Source: a virus
DNA length: 32,789 bases
Virus record (IMG/VR): IMGVR_UViG_3300025313_001364
Span: 1-32,789 of that record
Direction: 5' to 3' (one strand)
A model generated the notes under the pieces. The model made no database searches, was not told the origin of the DNA, and saw only the letters and a program-made list of their open reading frames with translations. The translations under genes were made by a program, and so were the position numbers. Below are positions 15,543 through 31,815 of the stretch, piece after piece. Numbering within the stretch: position 1 is the first letter of the stretch; the number at the start of each line of letters is the position of its first letter.

Positions 15543-16802
15543 TTATGGCATCACTGCCGAGCGCACGATTGCTGTCTCAGGGTCCCTCACGCGGCGCCAG
15601 GCGGCAATGGCACCGCGCCGCGTGCCAAACGGGTTATCCAGGTCCTGAGCCGAGACATTGTAGGCCGAGAACTCCTCACCCCCAGAGCGGAAGGCGAGAT
15701 CCGTCTGCCACCGGTTCATGCCCGCTGCACAGACGCAGCCCGGGCGATCGAGCTTCGCGGCCGCGAAGCGCGCGATGACGCGTTCCCAGTCGCGGTCCAT
15801 CTCAATGGTCGGATGCTGGCGCTTCTGATCCTGCCAGCCGGCGCGGTAATAGAGCCGAGCGACGTCCGGCATACGCCCGACGATCCACTCGGCCCGGTCG
15901 AAATCCTCATCCGTAGCGTTCCAGTCTCCGGGAGCATACGAGAGCACACCCAGCGCTCGATCTCGCATGAGGAGGCAGCCGGTCTGCGTCTCGTAGGAGC
16001 ACTGCACGCAACTGCCGCTTTCGGAGCAGCTGCAGCCACCTGCCGGCTCCCACAGGAACGACACCTGAGTCTGCGGGTCGTTGTAGATGCGGTAGACGTC
16101 GACCTCAGCGAGGAAACTTGCGTCCACCGAGGCGTCCTGGGCCTCCCAGCCGAGCGCCTCCTGAAGATCCTCCAGCACCGCGAGCTCGCGCCGGAACGTG
16201 ATCGTGGAGACGCCCGACGCGATCACCACGTGGATCGGCCGGATCTCCCATTCGGGCGCGCCGTCTTTGCCGGGATAGAACGCATGTACCTCCGCCGCAT
16301 CGACCACGAGCGAGCCCGAGGCTACGGTCACGGTGCCGGTCTCATCGTAGCTGTCGCCGTCTTCATCCGACCAGGTGATCGCACTGCCCTCCTCAAGCAC
16401 TGTCGCAGCCTTGATGCCACCGGTGAGGATGTGGCCCCAGCGTGCTTTCACGATGTTGTGGAGGCCACGCACATCGAAGGACGGGCGCATTACAGCTTCG
16501 GGGCGGAAATACCGCTCGATGTGGGCCCATTCGTCGAACTCCCAGGTCGGGAGCAGGCGATAGCCGATGTAGCGCTCGAGATCGCCTTCGGCTTCGGCGA
16601 TGGCCTCGGCGACGTCCTCGCGGGAGACCGCATCCGATGCCTGCCATGAGTGCTGAGCCCAGGCCTGGCCGCAGCTGACATTCTGGGTGTTCGGGAGCCC
16701 ACTTGAGCCGTCGAGCTGCAGGCCGGCGCCATGAAGCGGATTGACGCCGACGAGCTGAAACCATCGCCAGAGCGGGAGTTTGGTCGGGGTCGATGCTCTC
16801 AT
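15543..16802 (-). CDS. Head-tail connector / adaptor protein
   Basis: The 419-residue product starts at ATG 16802. The N-terminal part (LPLWRWFQLVGVNPLHG, then SREDVAEAIAEAEGDLERYI followed by GYRLLPTW) looks like the helical core of phage connector proteins that bind under the portal, and VNPLH is a recurring start motif of that group. The rest is beta-rich. It contains a Cys-dense stretch at about 254-276 (GGCSCSESGSCVQCSYE, then TGC) and further Cys at GCVCAAG, so a metal site or disulfides are likely. At 419 residues it is longer than simple adaptors and probably carries an extra domain. The gene is the first structural gene after the glycan island. Confidence 0.7.
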   Translation of the reverse strand: MRASTPTKLPLWRWFQLVGVNPLHGAGLQLDGSSGLPNTQNVSCGQAWAQHSWQASDAVSREDVAEAIAEAEGDLERYIGYRLLPTWEFDEWAHIERYFRPEAVMRPSFDVRGLHNIVKARWGHILTGGIKAATVLEEGSAITWSDEDGDSYDETGTVTVASGSLVVDAAEVHAFYPGKDGAPEWEIRPIHVVIASGVSTITFRRELAVLEDLQEALGWEAQDASVDASFLAEVDVYRIYNDPQTQVSFLWEPAGGCSCSESGSCVQCSYETQTGCLLMRDRALGVLSYAPGDWNATDEDFDRAEWIVGRMPDVARLYYRAGWQDQKRQHPTIEMDRDWERVIARFAAAKLDRPGCVCAAGMNRWQTDLAFRSGGEEFSAYNVSAQDLDNPFGTRRGAIAAWRRVRDPETAIVRSAVMP

Positions 16803-16815
16803 GGCGCCAGTGTAC

Positions 16816-17106
16816 TCAAATGCTCCGCGATAGGCGCTCCAGCATCAGCGCCAGCCCCGCGACGGCCGCGACCGCGAGAGGCCAGGTCGGCGCATCGAGT
16901 CGCAGCCACGCATACGCTCCCGCAGCCGTCCAGACCGACGTACAGCCGACGCAGTGCAACACACTCGCCAGGGGCAGAGGATTTCCGTCGCGCCAGAGCG
17001 CGGCTCGCAACCGCCGAATGGCCTCGAACGGCCCATCGTCCTCGACCAAGAGCACGGCGACCCTCCACGCGGCCAGGCCGGCAAGCGCGAGGGATAGCCA
17101 TGTCAC
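16816..17106 (-). CDS. DUF1360-like small membrane protein
   Basis: The 96-residue product starts at ATG 17106 and overlaps the triple glycosyltransferase gene by four bases (ATGA). It shows the DUF1360 pattern: an N-terminal helix with AWRVAVLLVEDDGPFE, then an LR pair (RRLRAALW), then HCVGCTSVWTAAGAYA with a Cys-x2-Cys pair at the start of the next membrane segment. A last hydrophobic helix (PLAVAAVAGLALML) follows. DUF1360 proteins are known from sporulating bacteria and many phages without a settled function. It is the last gene of the overlapping glycan chain and could hold the glycosyltransferases at the membrane, which is speculation. Confidence 0.75.
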   Translation of the reverse strand: MTWLSLALAGLAAWRVAVLLVEDDGPFEAIRRLRAALWRDGNPLPLASVLHCVGCTSVWTAAGAYAWLRLDAPTWPLAVAAVAGLALMLERLSRSI

Positions 17107-19829
17107 GGCTGACGAGTAACCGACGCGAGCTCGGGCGCGGAGCGAGCCGGCATCGAGGCCACCTGCTCCACCGTGTATCGCGACATGCCCCGCAGGTTCA
17201 GCAGCCAGTCGACGTCATCGTTCTTGACGTAGGCCCAGCTGCCCTTCTTGAAGTAGTACCGCGTGCTCGTCTTCGGGCTCCGGTAGCTGTGCTCCGAGGT
17301 CAGCGGGCCATCATAGAGGATGGCCGTGAGTCCGTTCGGCGAACTCCCCGCAGGCGCCGCCTGAACGCGTGATTCTGGCGATGGGAGCGAGGTCGACGCT
17401 GCCCCCTTGCGACATCCTGAGCAGGCCATGAATCGTTCGCCCCCTTTCCAGAGTCGGTCCCATTGTCGCAGGATAGCAGCCTTCGAATCCTCGAACGCCG
17501 CCATGTTTTCCTCGCGCCGGCGGCCCGTGTACTTCCGATAGGTCCAGAGCGGCAGCGGAATGCGCGTCGAGCAGTACCCGCGATCCGCGAGCGCGATGTG
17601 AAACGCCCAATCCTCCCAGGCCGGCAACTGCTCGTCATAACCGCCGACGGTGCGCCAGGCGTCGACGGGGATCAGCTGCGTGACGGCGCCGATCTGGCCG
17701 ATGCGGACGAGCAATTCCGGATCCCAGTCCGGATTCCGGAACACCTGCCACTGCCCGGGGCCGCTGGGATCCTCCCAGAAGTCGGAGTACGCCACGATGC
17801 CCGGCTGTTTGCGGATGACCTCGAACATGAACTCCAGGCACTCCGGCTCCAGCATGTCGTCCGCATCGAGGGGCAGGTAGTAGCGCGCCCGAGCAGCGGC
17901 CACGCCGACGTTGCGAGCATGGGCGACGCCCGTCCTGCCCTCGGTCTCGATGATTCTCACCCAGGACGGCAACGGAGCGAGGGATTTGCCCGAATCATTG
18001 ACTACAATGATCTCCCAGCCCCGGAACGTCTGGGCCTCTACAGAGTCGACAGCGTCGGTGACGAGCCGTTCGTGGCCCGGGCCGACAGGGATGACCACGG
18101 AGAGCGCCGGAGGATCGAGAGATGGTACGGGGGGTATTGACCTTGTCCCCGCTCCTGCCGGCGCTCTCCGCGAGTCTCCGCCGTGCCAGGGGAACCAACG
18201 GTGCCACTGCACGGGAGCCTCGAGACGGGACATGGAGGATTCGCGGTTGCGATAGATGAGAGTGTCCGCTGTCGTGACCATACGCGCGCGGAATCCGTAC
18301 GACGCCAGCCGGCACCAGAGGTCCGCATCCTCGGCGGTGCGGCAGCGGCCCCGATAGCCGCCAGTGAGTCGCCACGCCTCCCGCGTGAACATTGAGCAGT
18401 AGGGCATGAGATTCTGCCCGCTGAGTTGCCGTTCCCAGACGAACTGCTCGGGCCAGCCGCTGTTGCCAGCCGGCAGATCGCGCCGGTAGACGACGGGAGT
18501 CCGACCGTCTTCCTCGGTGAAGCGCACGTTGCCGTAGACGGCATGCACCGGTTCGAACCCGTCCGGCCGGCCGATCTTCGGGAGCACGCGTTCGTCGAGG
18601 GCCGCGGCCAGGTGCGCGAGCGTGTGGGGCGTGAGTTGATCGTCAGCATCGAGGGGGATGATGTATCGCCCGCGCGCGGCCGCGATGCCTGTGTTGCGCG
18701 CGCCCGCGAGGTACTGGTTCGTCTCGTTGTGAATGACCCGAAACCGTTTGTCCTTCGCCGCGTAGGCGTCGGCGATGGCGCCGCAGTCGTCTGGCGAGTC
18801 GTCGTCGACGACGACACATTCCCAGTCGGGGTCGGTCTGAACCTCCACGGAGTCGAGAGCATCGGGCAGGTACTGGGCGAGCTTATAGGCAGTGACGACG
18901 ATGGACGTCCGCGGGCTCGACTCCTCGGCAGCGCGCCGCTCTGCCAGCTGCCGGTAGAGGCCCGCGTACTGCGCAGCGGCGCGCTCCCACGACCACCGCG
19001 CGGCGGTCTCGCGGCAGGCTGCGGCCATCGAATCTCGCTCCACCATCGCCTTCTCAAGGGCTACGGCGAGCGCCGCGTAATCGTGAGGGCGCACGAGGAA
19101 CCCGTCGACGCCGTCGGTCACGATTTCGGCCGCGCCTCCCCAGCGCCAGCCAACGACAGGCACCCCGCAGGCGAGCGCCTGGAGGATGGAGACCCCGAAG
19201 GTCTCGCGCGCCGTCGAGAGATAGGCGCTCGCGCCCTGATGGAGCAATGCGGCTTCGGCGTAGGATTTGTGCCCGACGATCGTCACGTTGGGCGCCGCTC
19301 TCCCGAACGTAGAGACGAACTGCCGTTCGGGTAGGAGCTTGGCCACTTCGTTCATGTGATCCGGATCGCAGACCGGATCCGGACGAGTCTTGTCCCAGAG
19401 GATGTAGGCCGGTGACACCGGCCTGCCCTGCCACTGGCTAGCGTCAATGCCATGCCCGATGACGACGGGATCCCGTGCCGTGTGCCGACGGATGGCGCGC
19501 GCTACCCAGTCCGTGGGCACGGTGACCGCATCTGCGGATGTGATGGCCGCAAGCACCTCGCGGTTCGCATCGTGGCACCAGGACGGCCACTCGAACTCTG
19601 ACCAATAGAGCCCGTGGCAATGCGCCACGAAGAGCTTTCGCGGCCATTTTCGCAGCCACTCTCGCGGCATTGTGATGTGGCAGGCGAGGATGTCGGCGTC
19701 GGCGGGATTGCCCACAAGCTGGATACCCTGGGCGGGCAACGAGTTCTGGAGCCCTTCCACGACCCGACGAACGCCACCCTGGCCATCATCCTGGCCGCGC
19801 GCTTCCGGCCACATGTGAACCCTGATCAT
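17103..19829 (-). CDS. Triple-domain glycosyltransferase (GT4-like plus two GT2-like domains)
   Basis: The 908-residue product starts at ATG 19829. The upstream extension of the frame to 20153 is ignored because it lies in the methyltransferase gene. Residues 1-300 are a GT-B fold of the GT4 type, with RETFGVSILQALACGVPVVG at 208-227. The second Glu of the usual E-x7-E pair is Gln217. Residues 307-535 are a GT-A domain of the GT2 type (VVDDDS, PLDADDQL and TAEDADLW). Residues 575-770 are a second GT2 domain (VVIPVGPG, VVNDSG, PLDADDML and AWEDWAFH). The last 110 residues hold CSGCRKG (803-809) and a small domain with RYYFKKGSWAYVKNDD. It probably adds several sugars in sequence from nucleotide-sugar donors. 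Confidence 0.9.
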   Translation of the reverse strand: MIRVHMWPEARGQDDGQGGVRRVVEGLQNSLPAQGIQLVGNPADADILACHITMPREWLRKWPRKLFVAHCHGLYWSEFEWPSWCHDANREVLAAITSADAVTVPTDWVARAIRRHTARDPVVIGHGIDASQWQGRPVSPAYILWDKTRPDPVCDPDHMNEVAKLLPERQFVSTFGRAAPNVTIVGHKSYAEAALLHQGASAYLSTARETFGVSILQALACGVPVVGWRWGGAAEIVTDGVDGFLVRPHDYAALAVALEKAMVERDSMAAACRETAARWSWERAAAQYAGLYRQLAERRAAEESSPRTSIVVTAYKLAQYLPDALDSVEVQTDPDWECVVVDDDSPDDCGAIADAYAAKDKRFRVIHNETNQYLAGARNTGIAAARGRYIIPLDADDQLTPHTLAHLAAALDERVLPKIGRPDGFEPVHAVYGNVRFTEEDGRTPVVYRRDLPAGNSGWPEQFVWERQLSGQNLMPYCSMFTREAWRLTGGYRGRCRTAEDADLWCRLASYGFRARMVTTADTLIYRNRESSMSRLEAPVQWHRWFPWHGGDSRRAPAGAGTRSIPPVPSLDPPALSVVIPVGPGHERLVTDAVDSVEAQTFRGWEIIVVNDSGKSLAPLPSWVRIIETEGRTGVAHARNVGVAAARARYYLPLDADDMLEPECLEFMFEVIRKQPGIVAYSDFWEDPSGPGQWQVFRNPDWDPELLVRIGQIGAVTQLIPVDAWRTVGGYDEQLPAWEDWAFHIALADRGYCSTRIPLPLWTYRKYTGRRREENMAAFEDSKAAILRQWDRLWKGGERFMACSGCRKGAASTSLPSPESRVQAAPAGSSPNGLTAILYDGPLTSEHSYRSPKTSTRYYFKKGSWAYVKNDDVDWLLNLRGMSRYTVEQVASMPARSAPELASVTRQP

Positions 19830-19903
19830 TCCGCAAGTCTCCAGAGCGCCAAGCCCAGCCCGAGAATGACCACGTAGATGATCAGCAGGTCGATGTACCT
19901 CAC
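19826..19903 (-). CDS. 25-residue single-pass membrane microprotein
   Basis: Between the methyltransferase and the triple glycosyltransferase lies a frame from GTG 19903 to TGA 19826. It overlaps the upstream stop as GTGA and the downstream start as ATGA, the same four-base junctions used elsewhere in the island. GGGAGGGAG sits three to four bases before the GTG. The peptide reads MRYIDLLIIYVVILGLGLAL, then WRLAE. It is one transmembrane helix of about 17 residues with a charged residue at each end, probably tethered in the cytoplasmic membrane. Without it the gene chain would have a 70-base gap here. Function is unknown. Anchoring or regulation of its glycosyltransferase neighbour is inferred from coupling. 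Confidence 0.75.
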   Translation of the reverse strand: MRYIDLLIIYVVILGLGLALWRLAE

Positions 19904-20448
19904 AGGCTCCCTCCCAGATAGGTACCACCCCAGCCCATTCCCCGGCGGGACCATTCCGCAAGCGTCCCGCTTGCGATGAATGGGGCCAGTGCCAAGGCCA
20001 CTCCCGGATAGGCATCGGTGTGATCATGCAACCAGACGGGAGAACGAGCGCGCAGCGACGGCAACCAGAGCTTGAGCTCCATCGCTGTATCGGCTTGCTC
20101 ATGCGAAGTGTCGAGCAGCAGTCCGTCGAAGAGGCAACCGTTCCGGGGCCCATTGGAGGTGTGCGAGCACCAACTTTCCCAGCGATGGGCCCAGCCGCAA
20201 TTCTTGACGGCTTGCTCCGTCCAGTTCAGTGCATCCTGGCTTCGATCCACGCTCATCACGCGCGTGTCATCCGGAAAACGCTCAAGGATGGCGAGCGCTG
20301 TGGTGCCGCTGCCCGCTCCGAGATCTGCCACCCAGCGCGGGCGCTGGGCTCGCCAGTGTGCCTCGAAGAGAGACTGAATCAGGTCGACATCGTCAACAGT
20401 CAGGTACTTGCGGGACCGAGCGAGGTCGCGGGCAGGGGATTGCGTCAT
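19900..20448 (-). CDS. SAM-dependent methyltransferase (class I)
   Basis: The 182-residue product starts at ATG 20448, overlapping the preceding stop by four bases. The frame extension to 20826 is only a shadow of the preceding gene. Motif I is VADLGAGSGTTALAI, followed by VMSVDRSQDAL for the ribose-binding acidic strand. The region FDGLLLDTSHEQADTAMELK, with LPSLRARSPVWLHDHTD after it, resembles methyltransferase_24-type enzymes often found in polysaccharide clusters. It likely methylates a sugar hydroxyl or small metabolite in the glycan pathway. The exact substrate cannot be read from the sequence. Confidence 0.85.
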   Translation of the reverse strand: MTQSPARDLARSRKYLTVDDVDLIQSLFEAHWRAQRPRWVADLGAGSGTTALAILERFPDDTRVMSVDRSQDALNWTEQAVKNCGWAHRWESWCSHTSNGPRNGCLFDGLLLDTSHEQADTAMELKLWLPSLRARSPVWLHDHTDAYPGVALALAPFIASGTLAEWSRRGMGWGGTYLGGSL

Positions 20449-21122
20449 CGTTGATCCGCCCTCGCCTGGATGCTGCCGATGTGCGCGAACAGGTCTCCCA
20501 CCGGCCGCAGGTTGAGGGGCCAGAGCACCCGCTGACGAGCGGCAGGCCGGCCGCACCATTCGCGCTCGGTGCTTCCAGGATCGAGTCCCTCCGTCCATGG
20601 CCCGACAGCCCGCGCCCAGCGCACAGTTTCGAGCCGTGGATGGCCCGCTGCGATGTGATGCTCTGCACTCGTGGGATCGAGATGGAGATAGGTCGCGCCG
20701 TCGATGTTGAGGACCTCGGCGCGGAGTTGGGCGAGAAATCCCAGATAGCCCAACCTTACGCAGCCCCATCCCTCCCGGAGCGGCCGCACGAACTCCTCGG
20801 CGTCGAAAAGTCGGAGACACTCCCAATCGTCCTCAAGCGGCAGGACCCAGGTCGACTGAGGATGGATTTGCTGCATGGCCAGGTTGTAGGAGGCACCGTA
20901 GCCGCGGCGCTCGCTGTTGCTCGTGCGCACCGGCAGTCCGAACGCATCGCTTGCCAGGTGCGCCAGACATTGGCGATACTCGTCGGCGCTCCCGTCATCG
21001 GCGATATGCACGACCAATCGACTGCTCCAGCGGAGGTATTTCGCGAGGGACGATATGGTCCGGGCAGCGTAATCCCAACGGTCATAGGTCAGAACGGCCA
21101 CCCCGAGCGTCTCCTCAGCCAT
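20445..21122 (-). CDS. Glycosyltransferase, GT2-like
   Basis: The 225-residue product starts at ATG 21122 and overlaps the kinase-methyltransferase gene by eight bases. The N-terminus (LGVAVLTYDRWDYAARTISS) matches the first strand and helix of GT-A enzymes. IADDGSADEY follows, and the metal-binding region is LPLEDDWECL, an E-D-D version of the usual D-x-D. The C-terminal part lacks the long extensions of polymerising transferases, so it probably adds a single sugar. It is one of three separate transferase proteins in the island, with five predicted transferase domains in total. Acceptor and donor are unknown. Confidence 0.85.
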   Translation of the reverse strand: MAEETLGVAVLTYDRWDYAARTISSLAKYLRWSSRLVVHIADDGSADEYRQCLAHLASDAFGLPVRTSNSERRGYGASYNLAMQQIHPQSTWVLPLEDDWECLRLFDAEEFVRPLREGWGCVRLGYLGFLAQLRAEVLNIDGATYLHLDPTSAEHHIAAGHPRLETVRWARAVGPWTEGLDPGSTEREWCGRPAARQRVLWPLNLRPVGDLFAHIGSIQARADQR

Positions 21123-22200
21123 GAGCAACGCGCCAGACCGTCCGGCTGGCCCGCCGTCCAACGACGGGAATGGTCACGATGGGCGCAGCCTCGCAGCCCA
21201 AACCATTGAGCCAGGATTGAACGGCCTCATCGCTGGGGAGCCAGGCGGGCCCAGGCCCATCCCCGGCGAGTTGCGTCTCGAAGTACAGGATGCCGCAATC
21301 CTGCGCAATCTCCATCAGCTTCGCCTCAGCAGCTGCTCGCCCGTAGTCGCGCACCATGTAGGCGAACGTCGAGAACAGGAGCACGACGTCGAAGTTGAAA
21401 GTGTCCAGGTCCATGATGTTGGCCTGGTCGAACTTGACGGGCATGTAGCTCCAGAGCTCTCGAGCGATAGCGATGGAGTTCTCCCCGGTGTGGAATCCGC
21501 CCGTATCGATGCCTGAGGCGCGCATGCCCTCGCACGCTGCCGCCGCCACGAAGTCGCCTTGAAAGCACCCGAGATCGCAGAACGTCTTGCCCTTGAGTGG
21601 AAGCGCGAGATCCGTGTGCGCCCCCAGGTCCCGCAAGACGGCCCGCCATCGGCGCGCTACGCGCGGCGTGTCCCCCACCTCTTGACCATCGGCCGGCCAC
21701 TCCGCAATCGTGCGAAAGCAGAGCCCCGAATCCGACCATGGTTGCTTCTGCGGAGCGGGTTCGCCGATGAAGTGTGCCTCCTGGAAGTCGATGAGGTACG
21801 GCCAGTCGCGTTTGAGGATGATATTCGACGAGGTCATATCCCCATGGCGGACGTTCCGGCTACGGAGCTCCCAGAGCAGGCGGATCATGTTGCGGCGAAA
21901 CAGCTCGCCATCGAGGGGATGATGATCGGACCGCCCCAGGTCATTGGACTGGAAGGCGTAGGCTTTGCCCTCGTGCTCACGCACGACCCCTACCCTCGGA
22001 GTCGGAGTCATCCCGGAGCCCGCCATCTCATCCAGAAACCGGATGTCGTTCTGGAGCGCCCGCCGGTTGTGCGCGTCGAGCGCCACCTTTTCGATGATTC
22101 CGCCAGGCAGGCGGTAGACCTCCATGCCGGCGTGGCCGCCGATGAGCGGGTACGCCTGCAGTTGAGCGCGATGCGCCGCGACTGCCACTGCTAGGCTCAT
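21115..22200 (-). CDS. Kinase-methyltransferase fusion, WbdD-like composition
   Basis: The 361-residue product starts at ATG 22200, overlapping the preceding gene by four bases. Residues 20-145 carry a small kinase-like fold with a likely ATP lysine (IIEKVAL, K38), the catalytic RHGDMTSSNIIL (H119, D121, N126) and YLIDF (D138) as the metal-binding Asp. Residues 200-361 are a class I methyltransferase with motif I FCDLGCFQGDFV (208-218), an acidic IDTG after the next strand, and FDVVLLFSTFAYMV. The E. coli O9a enzyme WbdD combines the same two activities, in the opposite domain order, to end a polysaccharide chain with a methylated phosphate. A comparable capping role is a reasonable inference here. 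Confidence 0.8.
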   Translation of the reverse strand: MSLAVAVAAHRAQLQAYPLIGGHAGMEVYRLPGGIIEKVALDAHNRRALQNDIRFLDEMAGSGMTPTPRVGVVREHEGKAYAFQSNDLGRSDHHPLDGELFRRNMIRLLWELRSRNVRHGDMTSSNIILKRDWPYLIDFQEAHFIGEPAPQKQPWSDSGLCFRTIAEWPADGQEVGDTPRVARRWRAVLRDLGAHTDLALPLKGKTFCDLGCFQGDFVAAAACEGMRASGIDTGGFHTGENSIAIARELWSYMPVKFDQANIMDLDTFNFDVVLLFSTFAYMVRDYGRAAAEAKLMEIAQDCGILYFETQLAGDGPGPAWLPSDEAVQSWLNGLGCEAAPIVTIPVVGRRASRTVWRVAHG

Positions 22201-22889
22201 GAATACCTCCCCCACCGCGGCGGCTTCCAATCCCGGGTCAGGATGTTGCGCGTCTCCAAGATGACGCTCTGCCATGGTCCGCGCTGCGCCGTATCCGTGT
22301 CCGGATGCGAGCGGTAGTTGTAGAGCGGAGCGCCGTTCGCGATCGGGCGCAGGGCGCCAACGTCGGGATGCGTCATCAGGATTGAGATGAGTGCGCTGTC
22401 TGGAGCTCCCGATGCCGTCTCGACGGGGAAGCCCCCTGTGCGGTCCCAGAGGTGCTTGTGAACGACGGCCGCGTTGCACGGCACGGTCTGCGTTTCGCCG
22501 CTCTCCATGTAACGCACGCCGTAGTACCAGTACGTGCGTTCCGCTTCCTGCTCGGGGATCTGATGCGCGGACTCCCACCATGCCTCGATGGCCGTGGGCT
22601 CCAGCGTGTCATCTGCACCGAGCATCAGAATCCACGATCTGGAAGCCAGCGCCACGCCGCAATTGAAGGCGGAGGCCACCCCGATATGCCAGGGGGCACG
22701 CCAATAGCGTAGGAGGCTCTCTCGGCGTGGCAGATACTCGGATGGAATCGGAGCCACGTCGTCTACGATGAGAATCTCGTAGGGATGGGTCGTTTGCGCA
22801 GCGACCGAGTCCAGGCATTCCTCGATCCAGCGCTGATGTGCCTCCAATGGACCGAGCGGAATCACGACCGTCATGGGCGCGGTCGTCAT
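22197..22889 (-). CDS. Glycosyltransferase family 2 protein
   Basis: The 230-residue product starts at ATG 22889, overlapping the reductase gene by four bases. It shows a GT2 layout: MTVVIPLGPLEAHQRWIEEC, then ILIVDDVAP for the nucleotide, GVASAFNCGVALASRSWILM, and LGADDTLEP, where the first Asp of the usual LDADD is Gly but the two metal-facing Asp remain. Later come WDRTGGFP and GAPDSALI, which correspond to the acceptor and base region. It is likely a soluble cytoplasmic transferase. Donor and acceptor are unknown. The preceding two genes make or modify a deoxy-sugar, which may be its donor. Confidence 0.85.
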   Translation of the reverse strand: MTTAPMTVVIPLGPLEAHQRWIEECLDSVAAQTTHPYEILIVDDVAPIPSEYLPRRESLLRYWRAPWHIGVASAFNCGVALASRSWILMLGADDTLEPTAIEAWWESAHQIPEQEAERTYWYYGVRYMESGETQTVPCNAAVVHKHLWDRTGGFPVETASGAPDSALISILMTHPDVGALRPIANGAPLYNYRSHPDTDTAQRGPWQSVILETRNILTRDWKPPRWGRYS

Positions 22890-23716
22890 TCGTCGGCTCC
22901 ATCGCGCCGAAGCGCCTCCTCGAGCGACGGCAGCGTCCAAAGCGGCCCGCTGGGCAGAAGCGTGCGGTTGATGCGCGGCTCCGGCAGCAGCCGAATCACG
23001 GAGACCGCCCCATCGTGGCGCGCCAAGGATTGCAGCGCCGCCGCTTTGCAAATGGGGAACTCGGTCGCTAGGTGCACGATCCGTCGGCTGTCTCGCGGCA
23101 CTCCCTCCGCCTGGATAGCCCGGAGCAGCTGCACGGCGACGGCGCGCACGGTCGAGCCCGACCAGTAGGCATGAGTCCAGCCGTCGCCGGCGTAACCGAC
23201 ATCCCGCCACCAGCGCCAAAGCCCATGTCGCGTCGTCACGAAGGACGTTCGCACGATGAGGCCCGCAGGAACCTGCTCCCCGAGCGCCTTCGTCCAGCCG
23301 TAGGGATCGATGGGCGCTAATGGGCTATCGACTCTGTGCCCCGGGCCCGCTCCGAGTCGATCGTTTGGCGCTGATGCGAGCCCGCTTGGCGGCCATATGG
23401 CCCGGGCCCAGGCGTCGGCCCCGACGCCAAACACGCAGTCGGTGGAGATGCCGACATAGCCGGCACCGCACCTTTGGGCTTCAGCGCTAAGGCGAAGGGG
23501 TATCGCCGCATTCGATTCAATCTGCTCGGCGGCGGGAGCACCTGGCAGTCTACCGATGCAGTTGATGACGATGTCATCTGCCCCATATGGGCCCATGCCA
23601 GTCGGCAGCAGCGAGTCAGCCATCAGCAACTCCGAAGGCTCCTCGTCCGCGCGGTCCCAGGCCCAACGAAGCGCCGTGCCGAGCGCCCCACGGTGGCCGA
23701 ACAGATAGATGGTCAT
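22886..23716 (-). CDS. RmlD-like sugar-nucleotide reductase
   Basis: The 276-residue product starts at ATG 23716 and overlaps the dehydratase gene by four bases. It is a short-chain dehydrogenase of the dTDP-4-dehydrorhamnose reductase type. The NAD(P)-binding loop is GHRGALG (7-13), NCIGRLPG closes the nucleotide pocket, STDCVFG (91-97) supplies the catalytic Ser/Thr, and YGWTK (139-143) the Tyr and Lys. It would reduce a 4-keto sugar nucleotide, fitting the dehydratase next to it. Together they could make a 6-deoxy-hexose donor. The glucose activation and epimerisation steps are not in the window, so the host would have to supply these. The precise sugar is not determinable. Confidence 0.85.
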   Translation of the reverse strand: MTIYLFGHRGALGTALRWAWDRADEEPSELLMADSLLPTGMGPYGADDIVINCIGRLPGAPAAEQIESNAAIPLRLSAEAQRCGAGYVGISTDCVFGVGADAWARAIWPPSGLASAPNDRLGAGPGHRVDSPLAPIDPYGWTKALGEQVPAGLIVRTSFVTTRHGLWRWWRDVGYAGDGWTHAYWSGSTVRAVAVQLLRAIQAEGVPRDSRRIVHLATEFPICKAAALQSLARHDGAVSVIRLLPEPRINRTLLPSGPLWTLPSLEEALRRDGADE

Positions 23717-25689
23717 ACGTGCTCCGCCTCGTCGAGTGCTGCCGCGATCTCCGCTGCGCTCCAGTTCCCGGCCAGTGGTCGATCGCTCCGGAGCTCGAAC
23801 CGCTCAGCGGGATGGAGCGCCTTCACCGTCGGCGCCAAAACCGTCCAGAACGGCCCCTCCTTCAGGGCCCGCTTAGCCTCACTCGAGGTCAGCAGGGTCT
23901 CGTGGGCTTTCTCACCGGCACGGTCCCCAACCTGGACGTACTGCATGTCGCCCACGGCACCGTGCACGGCCGTGAGAAGCGACGACGCGCGCGCGGAGTA
24001 CACCGTCACCGTCCCGCTCGGTGCATCCGCCGCGGCCAGGATGGTGTCTATCGCCTCGCCGCTTGTCATCCAGAACCGCGTCATGTCCGGGTTCGTGACC
24101 GTCACCTGCTCGCCTGCCCGCACCTGCTGGCGCATGCGAGGGAGCGCGGAGCCCGTCGACCCGATGACGTTGCCGTAGCGAGCGACAACGAAGCGCGAAG
24201 CAGCGTTCCAGCGCGCCGCCTCCTGCCAGAGCCGCTCCATGAGCAGTTTCGTTGCGCCGTACGTGTTGACCGGCATGCAGTTGTGGACGATGACCCCCCC
24301 TGCAACAAAGTTGTGAGTACCCTCCACATCGAGACAGTAGACATTACGCCGAGGCCGATCCCCCTTCGTGACCTTTACCGGAGCAATGTACGGGAGGGAC
24401 GGGCCGAACCTCCAGTGACGTTCTTCATAAGGCGGAGCCCAATCCGGCAGCTTGCGACGCATGTGCCCCATCACATATGGACCGATCGCAGCAAAAAAGC
24501 GAGCGCTTGCGTCGGCCGTGAGTCGCGTCTCTGGATAAGGGCCCCACTTGCCCACGCGGACCATGAGGACGTGCGCCGGGAATCCATGTAAGGTCAGTTG
24601 GTCCGCCAACCATTGCACATCCTCAACTGAGAATCCGTGGGTTGCCAAGCGCGCGTGATAGGTACGGCCCCCATTCGTGCGACTTACACAACCGTCATCC
24701 ATGTACCACGCGGCCAACATTTGGGCTGACCAAGCATCGAGAACGTCTCGGCGGCAGACAATCTTCTTGCCGCTTGGATACCAATGCTCCCTCATCTGAC
24801 CAAGGGCCGCTCCTGCGGAATGGGGAAGCCGGGCGACGATATCTTGCCACTCCTGGTCTCGATTGCCGTGGCTCGTTTGTAGCCGAGCACGGCCTGACCC
24901 ATTGCGTGTCAAGAAAGCATCACCCAACAGGCACCCCACGGTCGTGGCGAATTGCCGTGCATTCGGTGCTTCTTCGCCGGTGACGATATGATCCCCGGTC
25001 CTGAGTGCAGCTGCTGGTATCCATCCATCAGGAGTCAGGACGAGATGATCCTCCGTCAGCCATACTCGCTGCGATTGCCCGCGATGCTGGTGCGCATGTT
25101 CGTAGCTGAGACCGAGCATTGTTCGGCCCGCCCTCTGATTCTTATGCCATCCCGTGATTCGGGCGGTCCGAAGCCCGTCGTTGGCGAGTGTGACGACCTC
25201 CCCGTCACACTGATCGTGCACCAGCTTGGCGATGCGGACCGTGCGGCCGTTTGCCAGACGAACGGGCGCAAAGTAATCCAAACAGGCCTTGTCTGTTGAG
25301 ATGGCGATGGCGAGCGGCGTCTGGGCGCGAGCACAGGCGAGTGCCACGCTGGCACTCCCCAGCACATTGACCCGGTAGGTGTCCCAGGCATTGCTCTCTG
25401 AGAGGTCGACATATTTTGATGCCGCAGCATGGATGACGGCATCGGGCTGCACTTCGGCCATGGCGAGATCGAACGGCGTCAGGCCATCACCGCTGTAGCG
25501 GAAGCAGACGTCCCCCCGGATCGCTTTCGTGACGTTGGGGAAGCGCTCGAGGACCGGACGGTGTTTGCCGTCGTCGCGACTGTAGATGACGAACTGGGCC
25601 GGCCAGTGTTCGTTGAGTGCTCGCTGGTAGAGAGCCCGCGCGATGAATCCCGCGCCTCCCGTGACCAGCACCGTGCCGCGAAGCTGCAC
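23713..25689 (-). CDS. Nucleotide-sugar 4,6-dehydratase (FlaA1/PseB-like) interrupted by an intein
   Basis: The precursor is 658 residues from GTG 25689, with GGGGGG about four bases upstream. A longer frame to 25785 would start inside an inverted repeat. The enzyme starts with VLVTGGAGFIARALYQ (NAD loop) and has GDVCF, VIHAAASKYVDLSE, AISTDKA and, after the intein, CMPVNTYGATKLLMERL with the catalytic Tyr-x3-Lys. Then come RYGNVIGSTGSALP and DMTRFWMT. The 335-residue intein occupies residues 136-470 and separates the STDKA motif from YGATK, so the enzyme is inactive until spliced. The spliced enzyme would be 323 residues, usual for FlaA1 or PseB-type UDP-GlcNAc 4,6-dehydratases, which feed deoxy-amino-sugar pathways. 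Confidence 0.9.
   Translation of the reverse strand: MQLRGTVLVTGGAGFIARALYQRALNEHWPAQFVIYSRDDGKHRPVLERFPNVTKAIRGDVCFRYSGDGLTPFDLAMAEVQPDAVIHAAASKYVDLSESNAWDTYRVNVLGSASVALACARAQTPLAIAISTDKACLDYFAPVRLANGRTVRIAKLVHDQCDGEVVTLANDGLRTARITGWHKNQRAGRTMLGLSYEHAHQHRGQSQRVWLTEDHLVLTPDGWIPAAALRTGDHIVTGEEAPNARQFATTVGCLLGDAFLTRNGSGRARLQTSHGNRDQEWQDIVARLPHSAGAALGQMREHWYPSGKKIVCRRDVLDAWSAQMLAAWYMDDGCVSRTNGGRTYHARLATHGFSVEDVQWLADQLTLHGFPAHVLMVRVGKWGPYPETRLTADASARFFAAIGPYVMGHMRRKLPDWAPPYEERHWRFGPSLPYIAPVKVTKGDRPRRNVYCLDVEGTHNFVAGGVIVHNCMPVNTYGATKLLMERLWQEAARWNAASRFVVARYGNVIGSTGSALPRMRQQVRAGEQVTVTNPDMTRFWMTSGEAIDTILAAADAPSGTVTVYSARASSLLTAVHGAVGDMQYVQVGDRAGEKAHETLLTSSEAKRALKEGPFWTVLAPTVKALHPAERFELRSDRPLAGNWSAAEIAAALDEAEHV
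24280..25284 (-). mobile_element. Intein with LAGLIDADG homing endonuclease, in a sugar dehydratase
   Basis: The 335-residue intein begins with Cys (CLDYFAPVRLANGRTVRI) and ends VYCLDVEGTHNFVAGGVIV then HN, followed by Cys as the first residue of the C-extein. Block B is LTEDHLVLTPDG, with the usual Thr-x2-His. The endonuclease motifs are VGCLLGDAFL and LAAWYMDDGCV, each with the acidic residue, so the nuclease may be active. The terminal His-Asn and Cys+1 are intact, so splicing should work. Removal leaves STDKA joined to CMPVNTYGATK, which reads as an uninterrupted dehydratase motif. Confidence 0.95.
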
Positions 25690-25868: not shown

Positions 25869-27338
25869 TTACCATGGATAGTAGGGGCTTGGGCCGGGCC
25901 GCGAGGTCTCACCACCCGCACGGTAGTACGGGTCAGACGGGAACGGCTGGTCCGGGTTCTGAAGCGGGCAGTAGCTCACGTTCTTGAGCCGGCCTGCCAG
26001 CTGCGGCGTGCGCATGATCAGCCGAGGCTCGATCTTGGCCTGCCAGATCACGCACCAGTTCGTCTGGCGGATGGTCTCCATGAATGCGCCGTTGCCCTGG
26101 ATGGTGAACAGCCCCAGCGGCGTGCCGGCCAGGGAGCGAATGTCCGGATTGTTGTAGTCGAAGTGCTCGAGGTAGGTCACGGCCAGGCCGCCGGCCACCG
26201 AGAACGGAATCAGGTAGATGTCGGAGCAGAAGCAGCCGGACGAAACGGTCTCGCCTGACGGCGGCTCGCCGTTGTTATGCTCGGTGATGGCGTCGTCCAG
26301 GATGACGTCGATCCGTTCGCCGTCGACCAGCAGGTAGCGTCCCACACGCATCTCGTCGCGCAAGCGCGCTTGCGCGGCCAGCTCGACGTTGTAGGTGTAG
26401 TTCGAGTTCGTGGACTGGCAGACGTACGTGATGTACGAACACGGCCAGACGTTCGTGATCTCGTAGAAGGCTGAGGGGCGCATGACGAAGGCCCAGCGCA
26501 CCGGCACGAGTCCCTGCCGTTCAGCCTTGTCTTTGAGGTAGCGGACCATGTAGGTGATGTAGCGCACGAGGAGCGTGCCGTTCGCCTCGCTGTCGATCCG
26601 CGCGCAATGAAAGTCCTTGATGTCGGGCGCCGTCGCTGCGCAAGCCGAGCCGGTTTCGGCGTCATCCCAGCCGTCCGTGCGGTTGAGCAGAATCTCGATG
26701 CCTGCGAACTCCCTGTAACCGGTGCCGGCGTTATTTGAGGGATTCCCGGTCCAGAGCATCAGGTTGAGTTTGCGCGCGAACGAGACGGCTCGTTCGTAGA
26801 ACAGCCGCTCAGCATCCGAGTTCAGGAAGTTCGCCGCGGGTGGGAAGTTGGCGCTCTGCCAGGGTGTCCCGAGTGTCGCTCCGCCGACGAGTCGCAGATC
26901 GATCGGCTCGGAGCGGTTGATGAGCTGGCCGAGCCTGTTGATCTCGACCTCTCGCGTCTGCCGCTCCACGCGTCCGAATGGGAAGGTGTGCTTACAGCCG
27001 CTCGTGATGCCACCCACAATGGCGGGGTCACAGGCGTCGCGGGTCTCGCTCCCAGAGTCGGCGCCGATCCCGGTGATCGTTTCGAAGACGGGATTCATAT
27101 AGCGCGACGCGCGGGTCGGCAGCTGGTTGATGAGCCCAGGGAGCGTGCCGATGATCGTCGAGATGACGGTGGGGTCGACACCGGGATAGGTGAGCAATCC
27201 CCCCGGCCCATGGTAGAAGCCTGAAGTGGAGCCGACCCCCGTGGCGTCGTGCTTGAGGGCGTAGCCGCCCTGCTTCAGCGCGATGGCCAGTTGCAGCAGC
27301 TCATCGATAGAGAGATCTCCCAGATCGCGCGGCGGCAT
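25869..27338 (-). CDS. Major capsid protein (HK97 fold, probable)
   Basis: The 489-residue product starts at ATG 27338 with GGAGGG five bases upstream, the clearest ribosome site in the head module, as expected for an abundant protein. Its place directly after the protease-scaffold gene is the classical capsid position. The sequence has an N-terminal helix (LSIDELLQLAIALKQGG), a long region with FPFGRVERQTREVEINRLGQ and YERAVSFARKLNLMLWTGNP, and a later domain with DGERIDVILDDAITE. Ten Cys residues are spread through the protein, more than usual. The C-terminal tail is Pro- and Tyr-rich (PGPSPYYPW). HK97 folds cannot be proven by motif, so the call rests mainly on position and size. Confidence 0.9.
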   Translation of the reverse strand: MPPRDLGDLSIDELLQLAIALKQGGYALKHDATGVGSTSGFYHGPGGLLTYPGVDPTVISTIIGTLPGLINQLPTRASRYMNPVFETITGIGADSGSETRDACDPAIVGGITSGCKHTFPFGRVERQTREVEINRLGQLINRSEPIDLRLVGGATLGTPWQSANFPPAANFLNSDAERLFYERAVSFARKLNLMLWTGNPSNNAGTGYREFAGIEILLNRTDGWDDAETGSACAATAPDIKDFHCARIDSEANGTLLVRYITYMVRYLKDKAERQGLVPVRWAFVMRPSAFYEITNVWPCSYITYVCQSTNSNYTYNVELAAQARLRDEMRVGRYLLVDGERIDVILDDAITEHNNGEPPSGETVSSGCFCSDIYLIPFSVAGGLAVTYLEHFDYNNPDIRSLAGTPLGLFTIQGNGAFMETIRQTNWCVIWQAKIEPRLIMRTPQLAGRLKNVSYCPLQNPDQPFPSDPYYRAGGETSRPGPSPYYPW

Positions 27339-31275: not shown

Positions 31276-31797
31276 TCAGTGTAACGTGGCTGGGCGTTCC
31301 TGCCGACGACGCAGATGATAGGCCCGCATGTAGTCACGTGTGGCCTGGACTTGCTCCGGAGTCCTTGAGGCCCGCGCTCTTGCATCGACAAGCCGCTTGC
31401 ACATTCGGCATTGCCGCCATCCGTTCTGGCCAATCCTGGTATTGGTGGGGCTGAACTCGTGCCCGTGATCACAATGAGTCTTACGCGCGTTGATGGCATT
31501 GGCGCTCATGCCGCGCCTCTTATTCTCCGCCAAGGTCACCGCCTCAAGATGGTCAGTCCGCACGCAACGCCGATTGCGACAGAGAGGATCCAGGGTCATG
31601 CCCTCTGCAATCGGCCCCCTGCCCAGCTCGTAGCCGAAGCGATGTGCCAGGGAAAGATTGCCCGTGCGGACACAGAACGCACCATACCCATCTGCCCTGA
31701 CCGCTCCCTGCCATTCCCAGCATTCATCGCCGGACCCATGAGCTACCTTGCGGGCGAATCGTTCGCAGGCATCCTGACGGTAGTAAACACGTGGCAT
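31276..31797 (-). CDS. HNH homing endonuclease gene, free-standing, possibly impaired
   Basis: The 173-residue product starts at ATG 31797. The frame also has GTG at 31803. It resembles HNH_3-type homing endonucleases: ECWEWQGAVRADGYGAF, LAHRFGYELGRGPIAEGMTL, then DPLCRNRRCVRTDHLEAVT and AENKRRG, followed by a second Cys/His module (KTHCDHGHEFSPTNTRIG, RQCRMCK). In most relatives the first motif reads D-H-x-C-R-N. Here the base sequence gives GAT CCT CTC TGT, so that His is Pro, which probably weakens or removes cleavage. The gene sits between TerL and portal in its own reading frame, 18 bases after the TerL stop, and is not inside an intron or intein. Confidence 0.85.
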   Translation of the reverse strand: MPRVYYRQDACERFARKVAHGSGDECWEWQGAVRADGYGAFCVRTGNLSLAHRFGYELGRGPIAEGMTLDPLCRNRRCVRTDHLEAVTLAENKRRGMSANAINARKTHCDHGHEFSPTNTRIGQNGWRQCRMCKRLVDARARASRTPEQVQATRDYMRAYHLRRRQERPATLH

Positions 31798-31815
31798 GAC
31801 CACATGTCACCACGG

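Follow-up and report, generated by a model that had tools for sequence, protein, structure and literature searches.

The window, a 32.8-kb virus record, contains a block of genes for sugar synthesis and transfer that extends from position 25689 down to 16816 on the minus strand, the strand of every gene treated here. A capsid gene precedes the block, and a conserved structural-region gene follows it. The open reading frames (ORFs) were found, all on the minus strand, at the positions given below for each gene, and all eight junctions overlap, by 4 nucleotides at seven and by 8 nucleotides at one, exactly where the original prediction had placed these overlaps. The block encodes (i) a dehydratase and a reductase, (ii) three glycosyltransferase proteins with five domains, and (iii) two methyltransferases, the first of which is fused to a kinase. 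This enzyme set, first named by reading the translations, agrees with Pfam and NCBIfam profiles, which back the dehydratase, an RmlD-type reductase, GT2 domains, a GT4-type domain, methyltransferases, and an APH/Bud32-like kinase motif. The G+C content is 0.61 to 0.67 along the window and shows no step at the block.

The same DNA, with the same gene order and 99.98 to 100% identity, is found in the 49-kb contig IMGVR 3300025325_000039, and a third contig matches the block DNA in part. Since independent contigs agree at 99.98% identity, an assembly join, an explanation already considered in the original prediction, is ruled out. The 49-kb contig reaches past the window on both sides and carries replication genes there, namely, those for a primase-polymerase and a UvrD helicase; in the replication region of this phage, a ParB N-terminal domain is also fused to an N6/N4 DNA methylase (L077:4605-5843). 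Within the window, an HNH endonuclease gene (31276-31803; PF13392) lies between the terminase and portal genes. A nucleotide search of isolated phages with the block and its flanks gave no match, scans for promoters and terminators returned no more than expected by chance, and nothing was found in an Rfam scan.

Flanking genes and enzymes of the block

The two flanking genes had been read as capsid and connector, and the first of these assignments is borne out. The major capsid protein (25869-27338, minus strand) was recognized by no family in sequence-family searches, and its AlphaFold2 (AF2) model, built from 36 sequences (pLDDT, 81.7), retrieved HK97-fold capsids (SPO1, SU10, and HK97) as the best Foldseek matches, the top one being SPO1 9vel (E value, 2.4e-10). 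The downstream gene (15543-16802, minus strand) also yielded a confident model (pLDDT, 89.2), which matched no fold in the PDB; since, in addition, only 1 of its 36 relatives matched a PHROG head-tail adaptor, its identity as a connector is unproven. A tblastn search of isolated phages with both flanking proteins gave no match.

The first gene of the block codes for a PseB/FlaA1/CapE-like nucleotide-sugar 4,6-dehydratase (23713-25689, minus strand), which is split by an intein; it has a GTG start at 25689 in a frame that is open from 25785. The protein matches PF02719 with an E value of 1e-49 and 169.7 bits (cutoff, 20.2). Its score against TIGR03589 (E value, 7e-45; 153.3 bits), obtained with the intein-split protein, is well under the PseB equivalog cutoff of 407.75. 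The nearest solved structure is PDB 2gn4 (E value, 1.5e-30), and alignment with intein-less homologues (L005 and L006) revealed the STDK...YxxxK catalytic residues. The dehydratase thus has its domain family and active site in common with PseB/FlaA1 (TIGR03589) and FnlA/CapE but differs from PseB/FlaA1 in its intein and in its partner, which is an RmlD-like reductase instead of the PseC aminotransferase. This predicted nucleotide-sugar 4-reductase (22886-23716, minus strand) scores 28.2 bits against PF04321 (cutoff, 27), a match that is weak for the single protein but clear at the family level: the family profile retrieves RmlD 1vl0 with an E value of 1e-33, and the GxxGxxG, STD, and YxxxK motifs are invariant across nine aligned members.

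Two GT2-family glycosyltransferases, at 22197-22889 (PF00535; E value, 3e-12) and 20445-21122 (PF00535; E value, 4e-9), flank a protein in which a kinase-like part is fused to a methyltransferase (21115-22200; PF13847 and PF01636), all on the minus strand; homologues of the first transferase occur in the same block of relatives. WbdD is a kinase-methyltransferase that ends the chains of the O9a O-antigen. The profile of six members of the fusion family matched the WbdD methyltransferase (E value, 3e-9), the solved structure closest to the methyltransferase part, as well as the RIO2 kinase (E value, 2e-5), and the HxD, N, and D kinase residues are invariant among the relatives. Like WbdD, the window protein thus unites both activities in one chain; however, it is shorter, and in all six members the kinase part precedes the methyltransferase part, whereas WbdD has the order methyltransferase, kinase, and coiled-coil ruler. 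The phospho-methyl-type capping initially envisaged for the pathway is thus only an analogy.

The second methyltransferase (19900-20448, minus strand) is a putative S-adenosylmethionine (SAM)-dependent enzyme (PF13578; E value, 4e-6). It is followed by a possible 25-amino-acid membrane peptide (19826-19903, minus strand) that overlaps both neighbors by 4 nucleotides. Since this peptide has no support other than these overlaps, with no homologue in relatives and occurrence only in copies of the window's own phage, it is doubtful and may not be a gene. The core glycosyltransferase (17103-19829, minus strand) comprises three Pfam-assigned domains, one GT4-like and two GT2, and its DxD and ED residues are invariant across 22 aligned sequences. 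Its last ~110 residues form a conserved domain (CxxC-like start, Y-x-G ... YRFG ... DV) that is present in nearly all relatives and matches no Pfam family. In one relative (L062:9995-13620), the core transferase is divided into pieces separated by an HNH endonuclease gene, perhaps through an intron or a homing insertion; it is also in pieces in L060 and L061. The last gene of the block (16816-17106, minus strand) encodes a small membrane protein of 96 amino acids, which, of the two small membrane proteins proposed, is the one that stands: 18 of 19 aligned relatives matched PF07098 (DUF1360), and the gene is present in 31 of the 33 contigs containing both flanks.

The intein in the dehydratase

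Two features were absent from the original prediction, namely, an intein in the dehydratase and the family-wide hypervariability of the block. The dehydratase ORF has 690 residues versus the about 310 to 350 expected, because residues 168 to 502 correspond to a LAGLIDADG intein of 335 amino acids (24280-25284, minus strand). Pfam detected a splicing domain and a LAGLIDADG endonuclease (PF14890 and PF03161), NCBIfam detected the C-terminal splicing motif (TIGR01443), and in tblastn searches inteins of T5-like DNA polymerases matched ORF residues 167 to 503. The intein contains Cys1, a TxxH block (TEDH), the penultimate His-Asn followed by the +1 Cys, and LAGLIDADG motifs. It is located between STDKA and CMPVNTYGATK, that is, in the active-site loop between the STDK lysine and the YxxxK pair, and without it the continuous sequence aligns to intein-less homologues. 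Inteins that are 31 to 39% identical (BLASTP) occupy the same site in two relatives (L038 and L055), with Cys1, TEDH, and HN|C conserved across the three alleles, whereas the site is empty in about 27 other dehydratases. On the basis of these motifs, the intein is predicted to be removed by protein splicing. The identity ranking of the three inteins differs from that of their exteins, which, for only three sequences, may hint at mobility.

Wider relatives of this intein are found in other viral contigs, in genes for portal, ribonucleotide reductase, RecA, and peptide deformylase, the last three having been named by reading their sequences. In one such contig (L081:2320-5259), the intein is in a portal gene akin to that of the window and belongs to the clade of the dehydratase intein. 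The intein of the window has splicing blocks and endonuclease motifs in common with known phage LAGLIDADG inteins, such as those of T5-like DNA polymerase and mycobacteriophage terminase, but it is located in a sugar enzyme, whereas a survey of mycobacteriophage inteins found them mainly in DNA and packaging proteins (PMC5050341). The dehydratase would thus be a phage sugar enzyme that needs splicing to work, with matched empty and occupied sites in relatives.

The locus in related phages

The original prediction had called for a comparison of related genomes at this position. We searched IMG/VR with the core transferase, which resulted in 53 loci, and mapped their genes with profiles built from the window; many contigs of this set are incomplete. 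The mapped order is terL, portal, capsid, variable genes, core transferase, DUF1360, next structural gene, and tail genes. By a strict count, capsid, core transferase, and next structural gene are on one strand in 32 of the 33 distinct contigs that contain both flanks. The place of the block is thus constant, at odds with the initial view of an isolated inserted island, and its gene content is variable. Among these 33 contigs, the distance from capsid to connector ranges from 3.7 to 17.2 kb (median, 9 kb), and the sugar genes vary: the reductase is present in 11 and the kinase-methyltransferase in 6, and the dehydratase is present in at least 17, a count that is too low because some open frames extend into the capsid gene. 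Block genes of relatives also encode PseC-like aminotransferases, heptose-7-phosphate kinases, sulfotransferases, and sugar O-methyltransferases. Whereas the core transferase is constant, the remaining genes have been gained and lost between related phages, as illustrated by L053 and L056, the flanking DNA of which is about 90 to 93% identical. L053 is longer by two segments; one of 0.8 kb holds a dehydratase, and one of 5.6 kb, containing two glycosyltransferases and a C-methyltransferase, is located exactly between the reductase and the core transferase. For close pairs of related phages, the island enzymes have dN/dS ratios of 0.10 to 0.21, indicating that purifying selection has kept these genes working.

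Three further observations were made on this set. (i) In L034, L035, and L059, HNH genes like that at 31276-31803 of the window are located within the sugar block. (ii) The core transferase was also matched in Pseudomonas phage Y4 (OQ572406.1; L075), which was set aside as it contains several polysaccharide-type genes and gave no structural-gene hit; this record, labeled as an unverified phage, may be a bacterial surface-sugar cluster. (iii) A genome scan for hosts returned only contigs of metagenome-assembled genomes (MAGs). Two MAGs from different phyla, one a Gemmatimonadetes bin and the other a Proteobacteria bin, contain one and the same phage contig (L068/L069), which points to misbinning, and other phages of the lineage fall in archaeal bins; host assignment by bin is thus not trusted.

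Predicted role in virion glycosylation

It had been stated that phages normally have no enzymes at this place, which is contradicted by mycobacteriophage Corndog, in the structural operon of which the interval from portal to capsid protease includes genes for three glycosyltransferases and an O-methyltransferase (PMC4351075). The virions of Che8, Corndog, and Myrna are described as glycosylated by phage transferases (Freeman 2023, as cited in PMC12363180 and PMC11256854), with capsid and tail-tube proteins as the mycobacteriophage targets (as cited in PMC12363180). Like the window, Corndog (cluster O), Che8 (F1), and Myrna encode glycosyltransferases together with a methyltransferase, and in Corndog these genes belong to the structural operon; the window has, as do the loci of the Corndog/Che8 type, transferases with intact catalytic residues and a position among virion structural genes. 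In contrast to these three phages, the window locus follows the capsid gene, includes nucleotide-sugar synthesis and a kinase-methyltransferase, and varies widely between relatives. In BLASTP searches, the window transferases had no significant match to Che8 gp108 to gp110, with gp108 showing only the profile similarity generic to GT2, and judged by sequence they are not orthologues of these proteins. As a whole, the locus resembles those of Corndog and Che8 but is larger, has genes for its own sugar synthesis, and belongs to an unrelated lineage.

We consider it probable that the block is a hypervariable phage locus for virion glycosylation, with variable content at a fixed place. In the proposed mechanism, the sugar product of which is predicted from the known properties of the PseB, FnlA, and RmlD families, (i) the intein, a selfish passenger on the splicing of which dehydratase activity would depend, would splice itself out of the precursor; (ii) dehydratase and reductase would convert host UDP-GlcNAc to a UDP-6-deoxy-amino sugar, probably of the L configuration, as do pairs of the PseB/FnlA/RmlD type; (iii) working in the cytoplasm, the glycosyltransferases would build up a short oligosaccharide directly on a protein of the virion, for instance the capsid protein; and (iv) the methyltransferase and the kinase-methyltransferase would then modify or cap it. 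The virion glycan itself is predicted from genes and position, and the position also suggests late expression. If virions are indeed glycosylated, particle glycosylation would no longer be limited to a few actinobacteriophages but would include a broad environmental lineage, in which complete pathways for making sugars differ between close relatives, as is the case for bacterial O-antigens. It could then be tested whether a variable coat shields the phage from receptors or predators, stabilizes the particle, or lets it evade neutralizing factors. More tentatively, and to our minds rather doubtfully, this uncultured lineage may have O-antigen-like virion "serotypes," in which each phage makes a custom capsid glycan, cassettes are exchanged at the fixed capsid-side site, and the kinase-methyltransferase limits chain length.

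Alternatively, the enzymes could remodel the surface polysaccharide of the host late in infection or in lysogeny, for superinfection block or receptor change, using a host lipid carrier and export. Polysaccharide loci of the export type depend on a lipid-phosphate transferase together with either a flippase or an exporter. An initiating transferase (Bac_transf, PF02397), a flippase (Polysacc_synt, PF01943), and a WecA-type gene (Glycos_transf_4, PF00953) were each found in 0 of 34 contigs in a search limited to these three families, whereas the DegT aminotransferase, used as the positive control, was found in 12. The absence of these families, together with the position in the structural operon, favors cytoplasmic sugar transfer onto virion proteins but is not proof, since hosts could supply lipid carriers and flippases. 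The enzymes are of the bacterial surface-polysaccharide type, and the conserved DUF1360 membrane protein that follows the core transferase in most phages could point to a membrane step. A tyrosine integrase is present in 4 of 34 contigs, but most contigs have none, and a constant location within the structural operon suits late virion production better than host conversion; we thus regard surface remodeling as unlikely. The capsid-side position in 32 of 33 contigs, the purifying selection, and the lack of the three families for lipid-linked export uphold the earlier view of a single coupled unit of the structural operon that combines sugar synthesis and transfer, most likely for the virion.

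It is far less probable that the bases of the phage DNA receive the sugars, as is the case in hypermodified phage genomes. Sets of phage glycosyltransferases for DNA hypermodification are known (Pyle 2024, as cited in PMC12619734), and several relatives encode DNA methylases; however, a base modifier of the thymidylate synthase family was found in 0 of 34 contigs (the control of the search for TET-type enzymes was empty), and for DNA-modification genes one would expect a place in the early region and not beside the capsid gene. Finally, although genes taken singly are similar to bacterial polysaccharide enzymes, it is hardly conceivable that the block is a bacterial sugar cluster of recent capture or an assembly artifact and has no stable role in the phage, given the identical DNA in independent contigs, the even G+C content, and the selection on these genes in related phages; this reading is refuted by the conserved position across divergent phages, many of which carry homologous blocks of ~45% identity at the same place.
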